DNA from: an uncultured Holdemania sp.
GTDB lineage: Bacteria > Bacillota_I > Bacilli_A > Erysipelotrichales > Erysipelotrichaceae
Assembly: GCA_947037125.1 (NCBI GenBank)
Contig: CAMQTJ010000022.1
Location: 1-34,697 of the forward strand
Length of the DNA stretch: 34,697 nucleotides
Direction: 5' to 3'
A model generated the notes under the pieces. The model worked only from the letters and a program-made list of their open reading frames with translations. It had not been told where the DNA came from and did no database searches. A program made the translations under genes and the position numbers. Positions within the stretch are counted from its first letter, which is position 1; every line of letters begins with the position of its first letter. Positions 24,626 to 30,441 of the stretch are shown here, in pieces.

Positions 24626-25471
24626 ATGAATATAGAAGCAATGTTTAATTTTGGAAAAGAATATACAAATGATGGTATTTTAATAACTGTTATTTTAGGA
24701 ATTATTTTTTTTCTTATAACAAGATTTAGTATTAAATTTATACAAAAAATGATGAATAAACATTTAAAAACGAAGGATAAATCAACTGCAACAACATATA
24801 ATTTTATATTTAAAATATTTAAAGTAGCTTTATATGGATTTTGCTTATACGCAATCTTAATTCAGTTTACAGCTTTAAAAAGTATTGGTAATATCTTATT
24901 AGGTGCATCAAGTGTTGCGGCAATGGCATTTGCTTTAGCAGCACAAGAATCAATGTCTAATATTGTTGGTGGGTTTTTCTTGGCTTTTTTCCAACCTTTT
25001 AAAGTTGGTGATTTAATTAAGTTAACTGATCGTAATATTGGGGGACGTGTTAAAGATATAGGCCTAAGACATACAACTATTACAACAATAGAAAATAGTG
25101 ATATTATTATTCCTAATGGAATTATGAATTCTTGTGTAATTGAAAATCGTGATACAACAGTAAATTATTGCAATTATTTAGTATTTAATATTAGTTATGA
25201 TAGTGATGTTGATAAGGCAATGGCAATAATACAAAAATGTGCAATACAACATAAAGATTGTGTTGATAAAAAACTATGTAAAGTTGTAGTTATCAATTTA
25301 GGTGATTATTCAGTTGATTTAAGATTAGCTGTCAATAGTGTTGATGCTATAGTTGGTTTTAATCTTTTATGTGATCTTAGAAAAAGTGTTAAAAAAGCCT
25401 TTGATGAAAATGGTATTGATATACCTTTTCCTGTTTATACAATTATGAAGCAAAAGAATCAAGACCTTTAA
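24626..25471 (+). CDS. Small-conductance mechanosensitive channel, MscS family
   Basis: The 281-residue protein has the MscS core: two or three N-terminal membrane helices (about 15-35, 65-82, 88-115), with the pore-lining stretch GASSVAAMAFALAAQESMSNIVGGF, followed by the cytosolic beta domain (PFKVGDLIKL, GRVKDIGLRHTTI, IIIPNGIM) and the alpha/beta vestibule. It opens under membrane tension to release solutes during osmotic down-shock. The ATG follows GGAAGTGGTG. It is about the length of E. coli MscS. A terminator follows directly, isolating it from the sigma-factor array. Confidence 0.94.
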   Translation: MNIEAMFNFGKEYTNDGILITVILGIIFFLITRFSIKFIQKMMNKHLKTKDKSTATTYNFIFKIFKVALYGFCLYAILIQFTALKSIGNILLGASSVAAMAFALAAQESMSNIVGGFFLAFFQPFKVGDLIKLTDRNIGGRVKDIGLRHTTITTIENSDIIIPNGIMNSCVIENRDTTVNYCNYLVFNISYDSDVDKAMAIIQKCAIQHKDCVDKKLCKVVVINLGDYSVDLRLAVNSVDAIVGFNLLCDLRKSVKKAFDENGIDIPFPVYTIMKQKNQDL

Positions 25472-25492
25472 TTAATTTTAAAGGTTTTTTTT
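25463..25492 (+). terminator. Terminator after mscS
   Basis: ACCTTTAA pairs with the TTAAAGGT side of AATTTTAAAGGT, followed by a run of T. The next promoter motif begins at the end of the T run. Confidence 0.82.
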
Positions 25493-25528
25493 GTCACAAA
25501 GTCTGTTTTGTATTGTTTACTTTATGAA
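25493..25528 (+). promoter_or_regulatory. Candidate ECF-sigma promoter, copy A
   Basis: Pattern GTCACAAA-N5-TTTTG-N3-TGTTT-N-CT-N-TATGAA. The identical spacing recurs at 28838-28873 before the second sigma gene, while bases at the N positions differ. Its place 34 bases before the first regulator gene, and its repetition only at the two units, fit an autoregulated sigma promoter. Confidence 0.6.
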
Positions 25529-25562
25529 CAGCAATAAATATTTATATTAAAAGGAGAATAAT

Positions 25563-26600
25563 ATGAGTGATAAATGGGATGAAATACAAAAAGATATAAG
25601 TGAATTAGATGATGGAATATTTGATGATAGTCAAGTTTTAGAACTTAGTAGAATTATTGATAATGAATTAAATAAGAAAGCAAAAAAAGCAAGTAGAAAA
25701 ACTATTATATATCTAATAGCTATAGTAGTAATTTTATATTTTATTATAAGTCCAATTGTTAAATTAGGGTATCCTAATCCAAAAAAATTCGAAAAAGAAA
25801 TGATTGGTGAATATTGGTCTAAAATGGATATGATTTTAGAGGCTGAATTTAATTTGTCTAAACCATATTTTCGTTATAGAGATTCACAGGTAAAAGATTT
25901 AGGTTTTGGGAATTATGAAATAAATCTAATGACACATGATAAAACAGCGGGTGCTATGAGGAATCCTGATGTTTGTGCTGTTGATATTAGTAGAGGTGGT
26001 AATGGATATTGTGATACTGCAGATTCATTAGCAATTAATGCATTTCAATATCATAATCACGATGTAATTGTGAATACAGAAAATATTAATAGAACATTAG
26101 ATATTGTCAATGGACTTCCTGATTCTGCAGCAATTTTTTCAGAAACAGCATTTATTGACTTACAAAAACTTTATGATGTTTTCAAAATGTTTGAAGATAA
26201 TGAAGATGATTTAATGTATGTGAATGTTTATGGTAAACACTGTAATAATATACTAGGAATAACGATGGAAAGAATGCAAGGTTATGTAATCGAAGATGAG
26301 AAAACAAATTTAAAGTATCCAAATTTGTCTCAAGGATTAAATAATGGTGATTACCTTAATAGAGTTGATGAATATACTCAGCATTTTAAATCAACTGTAA
26401 ATTATTTATATAATAATAAGCTGTATAGTGTGGATGATCTTAATTTAAGAAATATGCGTAAATATGTAAATAAAAAAGATTTTGAAGTCGAGTCAAAAGG
26501 TGTTATTTCAAAAATGTCAAAAAAAGAATTTTTGGATTTTTATGAAAACAATAAAGAATTAATTTCAGATATTCATATTGAGGACATTAATTTATACTAG
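25563..26600 (+). CDS. Single-pass membrane anti-sigma-like regulator 1
   Basis: The 345-residue protein has an acidic cytoplasmic end of about 45 residues (SDKWDEIQKDISELDD), one membrane helix (47-66) and a large outside domain. It aligns along its length with the products of 27105-28160 and 29404-30441: shared blocks are DLGFGNYEI, LPDSAxIxxxxxF, DVFxMFxDNExxL..VN, and a YxQHFKSxxNYLY block near the C-terminus. The layout matches the Firmicute sigma-factor-regulator type (Sigma_reg_N/Sigma_reg_C), in which the short inner end holds an ECF sigma factor. There is no zinc-finger HxxxCxxC motif. Ribosome site AAAGGAG. It comes first in its unit, before its presumed sigma partner. The anti-sigma role is inferred. 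Confidence 0.8.
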   Translation: MSDKWDEIQKDISELDDGIFDDSQVLELSRIIDNELNKKAKKASRKTIIYLIAIVVILYFIISPIVKLGYPNPKKFEKEMIGEYWSKMDMILEAEFNLSKPYFRYRDSQVKDLGFGNYEINLMTHDKTAGAMRNPDVCAVDISRGGNGYCDTADSLAINAFQYHNHDVIVNTENINRTLDIVNGLPDSAAIFSETAFIDLQKLYDVFKMFEDNEDDLMYVNVYGKHCNNILGITMERMQGYVIEDEKTNLKYPNLSQGLNNGDYLNRVDEYTQHFKSTVNYLYNNKLYSVDDLNLRNMRKYVNKKDFEVESKGVISKMSKKEFLDFYENNKELISDIHIEDINLY

Positions 26601-26617
26601 TAAAGGGGGAGTAATAA

Positions 26618-27112
26618 ATGAATAACACTGAATTAGAAAAAGTTTATCGCTTATATTACAACTCTTTATACATTTATGCTTTATCTTTATGTAAAAGTGA
26701 GGCTAAGGCAAAAGATTTAGTTCAAGAGACCTTTTTAAAGGCACTGCTAAGTTTAAATAGTGCAGATGGTAATGTAAAGTATTGGTTAGTTAAAGTTTGT
26801 AGGAATATTTATTTTAATGAAGTTAAATATCAAAAACGATTTATATATGTAGAAGAAGATATAATTAATACAATTAAAAGTGATGAAGATGTATTTAAAA
26901 ATGTTATCAAAAAAGATCAAAAAAGAGAACTAATGAATAATATTTTGAAATTACCATGTATTCAAAAAGATATTTTATTATATTGGATATATTTTGAACT
27001 ATCAGATAATGAAATTAGTAAAATAATGAATATTAGTAATCAAAATATAAGACAAATAAAATCAAGAGCAAAAAAGAATCTGATGCAGATAATGGAGGTA
27101 GATTATGAGTGA
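26618..27112 (+). CDS. ECF-type RNA polymerase sigma factor 1
   Basis: The 164-residue protein has sigma region 2 (about residues 5-75, with YRLYYNSLYIYALSLC and KDLVQETFLKAL) and region 4 (about 105-155, with LPCIQKDILLYWIYFELSDNEISKIM and NIRQIKSRAKKNL). That is the minimal make-up and normal length of group IV sigma factors. It is 17 bases behind regulator 1 with ribosome site AAGGGGG. Its last eight bases overlap the start of regulator 2 (ATGAGTGA), the usual sign of a coupled sigma/anti-sigma pair. It is close to the product of 28917-29414 (NSADGNVKYWLVKV versus PSADGNVKYWLVKV), so the pair duplicated. Confidence 0.93.
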   Translation: MNNTELEKVYRLYYNSLYIYALSLCKSEAKAKDLVQETFLKALLSLNSADGNVKYWLVKVCRNIYFNEVKYQKRFIYVEEDIINTIKSDEDVFKNVIKKDQKRELMNNILKLPCIQKDILLYWIYFELSDNEISKIMNISNQNIRQIKSRAKKNLMQIMEVDYE

Positions 27113-28160
27113 AAAATGGGATGAAATCAAAAATGATATTAAAGATTTAAGTGATGAAAATTTAGATGAAATAGTAAGAAATGATAATCAATTTGATGAA
27201 CTTAGTAAACTTATTAATATAGAAATAAATAAGAAAGTTAAAAAAGCTTCTTTCAAATTAGTTAAAATGTTTTTAATTGGATTTATTGCTTTATTTTTAA
27301 TCTTGAATCCATTGTTTAAATTAGGATTTGTTAATCTAAAAAAATTAGATAACAGTAATGCATTTGGGGATTTTGATAAAATGGATATTCTATTAATGAG
27401 TTATTTTAATGTAGTTCAGCCTTATTTATTCACAGATGATACTGAAGTTGAAGATTTAGGATTTGGTAAGTATCGAATACATTATAATAGTTTTGATATA
27501 AGAGAATCAATTAATGGTAGTCCAATTTTTAATAATTATGTTGATGTAGATAAGAACAAGCTTAAAGATCAGTATATCCCTAATGATGATTTTATGATTT
27601 ATATGGGACGATATCAAGGCAATGACGATCCATACAAGCAAGAATCTCTTGACTGGGGTGTCGAAAAGATTAGTAATCTTCCTGATAGTGTTAATATTTA
27701 TGCAACAATAAGTTTTAAAGAAGCCGTATTATTAGAAGATGTATTTGCAATGTTTGATGATAATGAATCTAATTTATTACATGTAAATATTAAAAATGGC
27801 AATCAGGCTCATCATAATCTTGGAATTAGTACGTATGATTATGTTTATGTAGATGATGATGTAGAATATGATTTGGAATATCCCAATATTTTATTAAAAT
27901 CAAATGTCGAAACTAGTATTGATGATTATAAACAACATTTTAAATCAAGTATTAATTATTTATATGATTCTGAATTTAATTTTAACATTAATATTAGTGG
28001 TCAGCTTCAATCAATGCATAAGTTAGTTAACAGTGATGATTTTATTTACGAATCAATGGGGTTTGTTGTTAATGCGAGTAGAGAGGAATTGCTTGAGCTT
28101 TATGAAGAAAATAGTGATTTGTTCGCTTATATTGAACTTGATGAAGTTAAGTTACACTAG
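27105..28160 (+). CDS. Single-pass membrane anti-sigma-like regulator 2
   Basis: The 351-residue protein overlaps the sigma gene by eight bases, so it is the likely direct partner of sigma 1. An acidic cytoplasmic end (SEKWDEIKNDIKDLSDE) of about 50 residues precedes one membrane helix (52-72) and an outside domain. The outside domain carries the same conserved blocks as regulators 1 and 3: DLGFGKYRI, LPDSVNIYATISF, EDVFAMFDDNESNL, and YKQHFKSSINYLY. Trp85 of regulator 1 has no counterpart here (Phe/Asp in that region). The ribosome site GGAGG lies within the sigma gene. No terminator is obvious at its end. Confidence 0.8.
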   Translation: MSEKWDEIKNDIKDLSDENLDEIVRNDNQFDELSKLINIEINKKVKKASFKLVKMFLIGFIALFLILNPLFKLGFVNLKKLDNSNAFGDFDKMDILLMSYFNVVQPYLFTDDTEVEDLGFGKYRIHYNSFDIRESINGSPIFNNYVDVDKNKLKDQYIPNDDFMIYMGRYQGNDDPYKQESLDWGVEKISNLPDSVNIYATISFKEAVLLEDVFAMFDDNESNLLHVNIKNGNQAHHNLGISTYDYVYVDDDVEYDLEYPNILLKSNVETSIDDYKQHFKSSINYLYDSEFNFNINISGQLQSMHKLVNSDDFIYESMGFVVNASREELLELYEENSDLFAYIELDEVKLH

Positions 28161-28837
28161 TGATAATTTAAGGGGTCTGTATCCTACAAGATACATTACA
28201 GTATTTATGATATGATATATATTTATACAAAAATATCATAAAATGATAGAAATTAATATTATGAAATATGTATTAAAGAATTATGTATTATAGAATTATC
28301 AATGTATCAAAGAATGTCTTAAGGATTTTATAAGAAATTTGAAGTATATAATAGTAGCAGAACCTTGTAACAATGTTGAAAATGATAATAGCTGCTCATG
28401 ATTTATTTTGTGTATTAAAAATAAATAAATTATTAGGTAATCTTTCACCTTCAAAAGAAGATAGAGAGCAATTGAAAGATAAAACTGCATTTTAAAATAT
28501 GGAATATAATTTGAAATTTGTAGAATTCATTTGTGGATTTAGTAGATTCTATTCCAAGAATGCTTCCTAATATCACTATGGAAAGTATACAAAATTTATT
28601 AAAGAAACAAAATATATTTATGAACAAAGAAAAGAATATTATTTAAAGAGTATCAATTTAAGATGTTAAAAATTATTTTAGCTACGTATAAAAAAATACG
28701 AATATGCAAAATGAAATAGATGATTTTTATATAGATATTAAAGAGCTGAAAGGCTCTTTTTTTCTTTAGGTCAACATAACAAGTTAATACCATAAAAAAT
28801 AAAAAACTATTATATATTAGATTATTAGCTATATTAT
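28161..28837. other. Long intergenic region with decayed coding-like sequence
   Basis: No intact gene. Short frames read like protein but are cut by stops: one at 28384-28494 (including INKLLGNLSPSKEDREQLKD), a QCIKECLKDF fragment near 28305, and DSIPRMLPNITMESIQ near 28545. They lie in different frames, as expected of a degraded gene or genes. I cannot name the ancestor; it does not look like the neighbouring sigma or regulator genes. A good terminator at 28740-28766 still closes the stretch. Confidence 0.45.
28740..28766 (+). terminator. Terminator closing the decayed region
   Basis: AAAGAGC-TGAAAG-GCTCTTT followed by a T-rich tract. It may also end the regulator 2 transcript. Confidence 0.88.
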
Positions 28838-28884
28838 GTCACAAATATTATTTTGATGTGTTTTCTATATGAAGTTGTTATAAT
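28838..28884 (+). promoter_or_regulatory. Candidate ECF-sigma promoter, copy B, plus extended -10
   Basis: 28838-28873 repeats the spaced motif of copy A. Directly after it, TGTTATAAT (28876-28884) is a housekeeping extended -10. The unit may therefore have a basal and a sigma-dependent start. Confidence 0.6.
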
Positions 28885-28916: not shown

Positions 28917-29414
28917 TTGAATAACAAGCAATTAGATGATGTATATAAATTGTACTATAATTTTCTTTACATCTATTCTTTATCGTTATGTAATGATGTT
29001 AACGATGCAAAAGATTTAGTGCAAGAAACCTTTTTAAAGGCATTTATTTCATTACCCAGTGCTGATGGAAATGTTAAGTATTGGTTAGTTAAAGTATTAA
29101 GAAATTTATATTATAATGAAAAAAAATACAAAAAGAAATTTGTTGAGTTAAGTGAACAACATTTAAATTCAATTAAAAGTGATGAGGATCTCTTTAAAAG
29201 TATTGTTATGCAAGATGATAAAAGAAGGTTACTTAAAATGGTACAAAACTTACCAATAAATCAAAGGGATGTTTTAATGTATTCAATTTATTTTCAATTA
29301 AATGATGATGAAATATCTAAAATATTGAATTTAAGTTGTATCAACATTAGAAAAATACGATCAAGAGCAAAAGAAAAGTTAGTAAAACTTATGGAGGATC
29401 AATATGAGCGATAA
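28917..29414 (+). CDS. ECF-type RNA polymerase sigma factor 2 (TTG start)
   Basis: The 165-residue protein is closely similar to sigma 1 along its length: region 2 with YKLYYNFLYIYSLSLC and KDLVQETFLKAF, region 4 with LPINQRDVLMYSIYFQLNDDEISKIL and NIRKIRSRAKEKL. The start is TTG, supported by the ribosome site AAGGGGTG and by exact alignment of the first codons with MNN of sigma 1; the nearby ATG at 28912 is out of frame. Its end overlaps the start of regulator 3 (ATGAGCGATAA). A rare start codon may lower its expression. Confidence 0.92.
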   Translation: MNNKQLDDVYKLYYNFLYIYSLSLCNDVNDAKDLVQETFLKAFISLPSADGNVKYWLVKVLRNLYYNEKKYKKKFVELSEQHLNSIKSDEDLFKSIVMQDDKRRLLKMVQNLPINQRDVLMYSIYFQLNDDEISKILNLSCINIRKIRSRAKEKLVKLMEDQYER

Positions 29415-30441
29415 ATTAAATAAAATAGAGGATGATATTAGAGCATTGAATGATATTGAAATTAATGATAATGAAGTAAGGGACATAACTAAATTAATCA
29501 ATAAGGCAGTTAATAAGCGTATCAAAGTTATATGCTTAAAAACAATTGCAAGTGTTGTTATTGTTGTGGGAATAATCTTTTTATTAATTAGTCCATTAAT
29601 GAAAGCCACTAACGTTAATGTGAAAGAATATTCTGAAAATATGGTAGGTGAAAATTGATCACAACTTGATTTGCTTTTAAAAGTCAGGATGAATTTATTG
29701 TCTCCATTTAGTCATTTATATCATGCTGAAGTAGAAGATTTAGGTTTTGGTAATTATGAAATTAAAATGAAATTACATAATCATTTAATGAGTTTTCATT
29801 CAGCTGAATATCAAGTAGTTGCTAATGTTAATAGAGGTGATTTTGAAGTTGTTTCTGATATGTATAGAGAATTTATGCTTCTTTACAATCGCTATTGCTA
29901 TGAAATAGAAGGAGACTATTTTACTCCACAAATGGAAACTTTATATGATTTACCAAATAGTGCAAACATAGCTGCAAGAGTTGGGTTTAAAGATAAATTG
30001 TCATTGGAACAAGTATTTTCATTATTTAAAGATGATGATAGGATGCTTGAATATGTAAATATTTATGATAGTAGTGAACCGTATGAATTATTTGGTTTTA
30101 AGGTTGCTGGAAAATATAATCATAAAATTAATGATAACAATATTAATGAAAATTATCCTAATCTTTTATATCAACCAACAAAAGGAAGTTATCTTAGTCA
30201 AATTGATGAATATAAACAACACTTTATTTCAAGCTTGAATTATCTTAATGATAGTGAATTGCAATTGTATTCAGATGGTGGACATTTGAACAATTTTGTA
30301 GATATAGTAAATGATCCAAACTTTGAATTTATATCATCAGGAATTGAAATAACAGGAAGTAAAGAAGAAATGATTGAATTTTTAGAAACAAATAAAGAAC
30401 TAATTGATCATTTAGCATTTTATGATATAAGACTTTATTAA
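29404..30441 (+). pseudogene. Anti-sigma-like regulator 3, interrupted by in-frame TGA
   Basis: The frame codes for the same protein type as regulators 1 and 2: cytoplasmic end (SDKLNKIEDDIRALND), membrane helix (about 46-66), then the outside domain with DLGFGNYEI, LPNSANIAARVGF, EQVFSLFKDDD and YKQHFISSLNYLN. Codon 85 (29656-29658) is TGA. The frame then runs open to 30441, giving 345 residues in all, the length of regulator 1, whose residue 85 is Trp (TGG). A single G-to-A change explains it. As written, the product is an 84-residue piece keeping the inner sigma-binding end and membrane helix but no sensor domain. That piece could still hold sigma 2, so loss of function is not certain. Sequencing error is the main alternative. 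Confidence 0.82.

Follow-up and report, generated by a model that had tools for sequence, protein, structure and literature searches.

A conserved spaced element, very probably a self-transcribed promoter, before two ECF sigma factor operons of an uncultured Holdemania

Genes at the locus

The window analysed here is the whole stretch of 34,697 nt, + strand, of contig CAMQTJ010000022.1 from an uncultured Holdemania sp. (assembly GCA_947037125.1), whose genome is available as a 2.49 Mb draft of 135 contigs. It carries two neighbouring units of ECF sigma factors and putative membrane regulators, each behind one copy of a spaced element:

25563..26600, + strand: regulator 1, 345 aa, membrane-anchored putative anti-sigma factor, first in operon 1 (alignment with regulator 2)
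26618..27112, + strand: ECF sigma factor 1, 164 aa (Pfam Sigma70_r2, 7.9e-10)
27105..28160, + strand: regulator 2, 351 aa, with a Sigma_reg_C domain (PF13791, 1.1e-05)
28740..28759, + strand: terminator-like hairpin upstream of predicted promoter 2 (terminator scan, 1 found and 0.4 expected)
28917..29414, + strand: ECF sigma factor 2, 165 aa, TTG start (Sigma70_r2, 6.8e-10; Sigma70_r4_2, 2.2e-08)
29404..30441, + strand: regulator 3, frame interrupted by TGA (two same-frame ORFs of 84 and 256 aa)

As described in the original prediction, operon 1 behind the first copy reads regulator 1, sigma 1, regulator 2, and operon 2 behind the second copy reads sigma 2, regulator 3; regulators 2 and 3 overlap the sigma genes that precede them. 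The units are paralogous, with 60% identity between the two sigmas. Both sigmas score above the cut-off of the sigma70-ECF superfamily (NCBIfam) and possess the make-up of ECF (group 4) factors, namely regions 2 and 4 only, joined by a short linker, and their sequences stop directly after region 4, which in sigma 1 scores just below the Pfam cut-off. At least two further ECF genes (C25:718 and C16:36147) are present in the genome.

In regulator 2 the PF13791 match (26.1 bits, cut-off 25) lies downstream of a membrane helix, in the arrangement of Sigma_reg_N/Sigma_reg_C proteins; its structure model is of low confidence (mean pLDDT 69.8) and returned no PDB match at E <= 0.001. Regulator 1 gave no Pfam match when searched alone and can be aligned with regulator 2 over the full length at 36% identity. 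In regulator 3 an in-frame TGA at 29656-29658 breaks the frame at a codon that is TGG in regulator 1 (GEYWSKMD in regulator 1, GEN*SQLD in regulator 3), and the second ORF, of 256 aa, matches PF13791 just below the cut-off (9.2e-05). The TGA may be real or perhaps a sequencing error; if translated as it stands, the 84-residue front piece would retain its inner part and membrane helix but not the outer domain. The roughly 570 bases between the units (28161-28730) hold no convincing gene, only short fragments resembling a decayed one. An Rfam search of the region analysed returned no family.

The shared element

According to the original prediction, both units are preceded by a motif with identical spacing, GTCACAAA-N5-TTTTG-N3-TGTTT-N-CT-N-TATGAA. 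It is indeed present, exactly and with identical spacing, at 25493-25528 and 28838-28873 (+ strand). A scan with the spaced pattern argues against random occurrence: no third match within 3 mismatches was found in the window or in the whole 2.49 Mb genome, and the controls yielded 0 matches, both in 100 shuffles of the window and in the genome with the reversed pattern. A T precedes the initial G in both copies, so that the common element becomes TGTCACAAA-N13-TGTTT-N4-TATGAA. Counted from this T, copy 1 stands 71 bases before regulator 1 and copy 2 stands 80 bases before sigma 2. Since the TTTTG inside the 13-base spacer is not kept in relatives and the copies agree at just 6/13 spacer positions, this match is probably due to chance and was given no weight. 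The remaining parts, named according to the comparison described below, are the following:

25492..25500, + strand: predicted promoter 1, -35, TGTCACAAA (exact match; TGTNA there in 17/21 orthologous operon heads)
25514..25518, + strand: predicted promoter 1, -10, TGTTT (YGT[T/A] with an unchanged 22-nt offset to the -35, 17/21 heads)
25523..25528, + strand: predicted promoter 1, start region, TATGAA (pyrimidine-purine step at this offset)
28837..28845, + strand: predicted promoter 2, -35, TGTCACAAA (basis as for promoter 1)
28859..28863, + strand: predicted promoter 2, -10, TGTTT (basis as for promoter 1)
28868..28873, + strand: predicted promoter 2, start region, TATGAA (pyrimidine-purine step at this offset)
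25464..25491, + strand: hairpin ACCTTTAA/TTAAAGGT with a T tail (read by eye)

The last of these features is the probable terminator of the upstream MscS-type gene. It was not called by the terminator scan, for which it is too A+T-rich, and its T tail runs directly into the -35 of promoter 1.

Conservation before orthologous units

Within the order Erysipelotrichales, only 17/316 genomes have orthologous sigma-regulator units (E <= 1e-22), and a class-level search with the limit E <= 1e-24 detected none beyond the order. They were found in Solobacterium and Traorella, both members of the Erysipelotrichaceae, and the same sequences are present in two genomes of the window's family. Named genomes were scanned for the sigma in two rounds; the first returned nothing and the second mostly unrelated ECF factors together with two useful units. 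The closest ortholog (L013) belongs to another genus of the family and has a sigma that is 42% identical. Directly before its sigma gene stands TTTTTTGTCACAAA-AGTCTTCTCTGTG-TGTTTTGATAGTAG, in which the core and the spacing are kept and TATGAA is not; TGTCACAAA-N13-TGTTT stands 50 bases before the sigma ATG, and upstream of it a T tail adjoins the -35 as in the window.

Across the orthologous units, the pattern TGTNA-N17-YGT[T/A] is present in 17/21 operon heads. At every other gap from 8 to 27 the same words were seen in 0-2 heads, and dinucleotide shuffles gave a mean of 0.34 matches and a maximum of 2. Two of the four units without the pattern are near-identical copies. The pattern had been written by eye from the same regions in which it was counted, and for this reason the count was repeated blindly with all three-letter word pairs at gaps 8-30 in 21 upstream regions, the window's two being left out. 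TGT-20-GTT ranked first with 16/21, followed by a pair with 12, and the highest count for any word pair in 60 shuffled sets was 11. Of three further independent units, two agree with the pattern exactly (L102/G147 and L187) and one deviates by a single extra base (L091/G256, spacing 18); L185 also matches and is nearly a copy of L057. The pattern is absent upstream of 14 ECF genes outside the orthologous group.

Comparison of the upstream regions shows that the element exists, is tied to these operons and is conserved along with its spacing: core and spacing recur before most orthologous units, and a -35/-10 pair with constant spacing stands before the sigma operon, as is expected of an autoregulated promoter. 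A functionless remnant of an operon duplication could likewise explain why two paralogous units with 60% identical sigmas share a motif, the more so as identity outside the core is modest rather than nil; this is nevertheless highly improbable, as the same spaced elements precede orthologs that are only 28-42% identical in protein and have otherwise different flanks.

By eye, TGTAA[C/G] followed 17-18 bases on by CGTC or CGAT was seen before the start codons of three unrelated ECF genes of the order (L189, L196 and L009), which may point to a TGTAA-type -35 as a common feature of these bacteria.

Promoter parts and predicted start

In the alignment of the upstream regions the -10 reads YGTT, once YGTA, in 19/19 sites. 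Seven bases after YGTT a pyrimidine-purine step is found in 18/18 readable sites, other offsets having 0 to 12, and the trinucleotide TGA occupies the start position in 12/19 aligned sites. Bacterial start sites usually have such a pyrimidine-purine pair at -1/+1, and the distance is that usually seen between an ECF -10 and the start; TATGAA was therefore assigned to the start region. The predicted +1, deduced from aligned sequences, would be G25526 in promoter 1 and G28871 in promoter 2, with leaders of 37 and 46 nt, respectively. In the sister clade of sigmas (L014, L015, L016, L007, L049 and others), the start codon follows the predicted start after only some 10-16 bases, leaving a leader with little beyond the ribosome-binding site. 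This purine-rich site follows closely and may add to the purines of the start signal, but not to the pyrimidine. Upstream T-richness is general among the 19 aligned sites.

The proposal of an autoregulated ECF promoter is well supported by the comparison, yet its division into parts had to be revised. What was viewed as a two-part element does show spaced constraint, but in three parts, namely -35, -10 and start region. Transcripts had been expected to begin just after TATGAA, which would make it the -10; the comparison instead makes TGTTT the -10 and places +1 at the G within TATGAA. The earlier assignment would fit an ordinary housekeeping (sigma-A) promoter whose -10 is TATGAA and in which the remainder is incidental. 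TATGAA does resemble TATAAT, but the closest ortholog keeps TGTCACAAA and TGTTT and not this part, a consensus scan of the + strand placed no sigma-70-type site over either motif, and such sites are no more frequent in the region than in shuffles (37 found, 37.5 expected), which makes a sigma-A promoter very improbable.

Sigma clades and -35 specificity

In a tree of 20 sigma sequences, those with TGTCAC promoters (sigma 1, sigma 2, L013 and L057) split off with support of 99/97; L057 forms a long branch and its exact placement is less sure. In the recognition helix of these four sigmas, position 146 is Q or K and position 149 is S; the 16 others have V, T or M at 146 and H, Y, N or F at 149, the -35 of the sister clade being mostly TGT[A/T]AT. 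Solved SigW has T and H at the aligned positions of its helix, and in E. coli sigma-E the corresponding positions are among those touching the -35. The tree shows a single origin of the TGTCAC trait, so that the correlation counts as one event and not as repeated covariation.

These data also bear on two alternatives. The element might be the binding site of a separate DNA-binding regulator rather than a promoter, since operators can be conserved spaced blocks. It tracks the sigma phylogeny, however, has no dyad symmetry obvious by eye, and agrees with an ECF promoter in block spacing, downstream pyrimidine-purine step and distance from the gene, so that an operator is barely conceivable. Alternatively, the element might be an ECF promoter whose main reader is a different ECF sigma of the cell, standing above sigma 1 and sigma 2 in a cascade. 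Candidates are at hand in the two or more further ECF genes, and cascades between ECF sigmas have been proposed (PMC3817407), but the motif is absent before C25:718 and C16:36147, it accompanies the sigma 1 and sigma 2 orthologs from genus to genus, and its -35 varies in step with their recognition helix; a cascade of this kind is accordingly improbable.

Search for a regulon

The motif had also been put forward as a search key for the regulon, an expectation that was disappointed: nothing was found outside the two operons. Scans of four genomes of the TGTCAC clade with the core at one mismatch, the three-part pattern and a looser form revealed no match in a non-coding position before a gene of convincing length, apart from those before the ECF units. 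Three core sites with 1 mismatch fall inside long ORFs, and two one-mismatch three-part sites were not placed relative to genes. In 196 family genomes the strict core gave 15 matches against 5 in controls, of which only the two window sites and that of the closest ortholog precede ECF units; the others are mostly located within genes, and three stand in front of unrelated ones. Two looser keys were discarded, namely the core with 2 mismatches (79 matches, 60 in the control, no useful excess) and the ECF41-type key TGTCACA-N13-17-YGTY (15 genome matches, 15 reversed). A regulon restricted to the sigma operons themselves, like that of ECF41, is the simplest reading, although such a search would overlook weaker sites and, for the window, covered a draft genome.

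Proposed mechanism

Most ECF sigmas transcribe their own operon (PMC3817407), and each of the two motifs is very likely the promoter of the operon behind it, used by RNA polymerase with the ECF sigmas of these same operons. Region 4 of the sigma would read TGTCACAAA as the -35 and region 2 would read TGTTT as the -10, with 15 bases between TGTCACA and TGTT, and RNA would begin at the G inside TATGAA. The membrane-anchored Sigma_reg_C-type regulators most likely keep the sigmas inactive, an anti-sigma action that is suggested for regulators 1 and 3 by analogy, until a signal outside the cell would free the sigma from its regulator. We infer that each freed sigma most likely starts RNA at both promoters. 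Sigma and regulator would then be raised together, resulting in a positive loop that is damped by the added regulator.

It is conceivable, though rather doubtful, that the locus forms a closed circuit in which the two sigmas, whose -35-reading helices are nearly the same, read each other's promoters and no other gene. The outer domains would then set the three regulators apart, and the membrane-anchored 84-residue stub of regulator 3 would perhaps bind a sigma but be unable to sense. The promoter specificity of the clade would, in this reading, have been switched from TGT[A/T]AT to TGTCAC by the paired change at 146 and 149.

Comparison with known systems

The element is real and, judged by comparison of sequences, functional; it is of an ordinary kind, very probably the promoter of a self-transcribing ECF sigma/anti-sigma operon. 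A literature search joining Erysipelotrichaceae with ECF sigma found no description of such a system.

The promoters closest in sequence are the targets of ECF41 sigmas, TGTCACA-N16-CGTC or TGTT, as described for B. licheniformis ydfG and R. sphaeroides RSP_0606, where the promoter is activated by its sigma and 5' RACE placed the start at a G (PMC3426412). The -35 TGTCACA is identical, the -10 is of the TGTT type, the start (here predicted) is a G, the window spacer falls within the published 16 +/- 1, and the regulon likewise looks limited to a single locus (PMC3426412). The window sigmas, in contrast, are 164-165 aa long, are devoid of the fused C-terminal regulatory domain that defines ECF41, and adjoin membrane regulators instead of carboxymuconolactone decarboxylase-type genes. 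They are thus not members of ECF41, and the common -35 looks convergent. No ECF41-type promoter was found in the named loci examined.

The autoregulated promoters of the Bacillus SigM, SigV and SigW type resemble the element in pairing a -35 with a -10 ahead of a sigma/anti-sigma operon. Among curated NCBIfam models SigM comes closest to the window sigmas, which with 98.3 and 86.2 bits remain far below the cut-off of 199 bits of the SigM equivalog (NF007226). The consensus given in a review has AAC at -35 and CGT at -10 (PMC8103513), whereas TGTCAC or TGT[A/T]AT is combined here with YGTT. For this ECF group in Erysipelotrichales the analysis provides a comparison-tested consensus: TGTCAC or TGT[A/T]AT, 16 bases, YGTT, 7 bases, and a start at a pyrimidine-purine step.

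The sister clade within Erysipelotrichales (L007, L014-L017, L049, L053-L056, L058-L060) has the same architecture, spacing and start signal, and in the units inspected the sigma is followed by a regulator gene. It differs in the recognition helix, R-[V/T/M]-x-[R/K]-[H/Y/N/F]-R as opposed to R-[Q/K]-I-[R/K]-S-R in the TGTCAC clade. The two clades constitute a natural pair that differs jointly in the -35 and in two residues of the recognition helix and offers a test of promoter choice by ECF sigmas.
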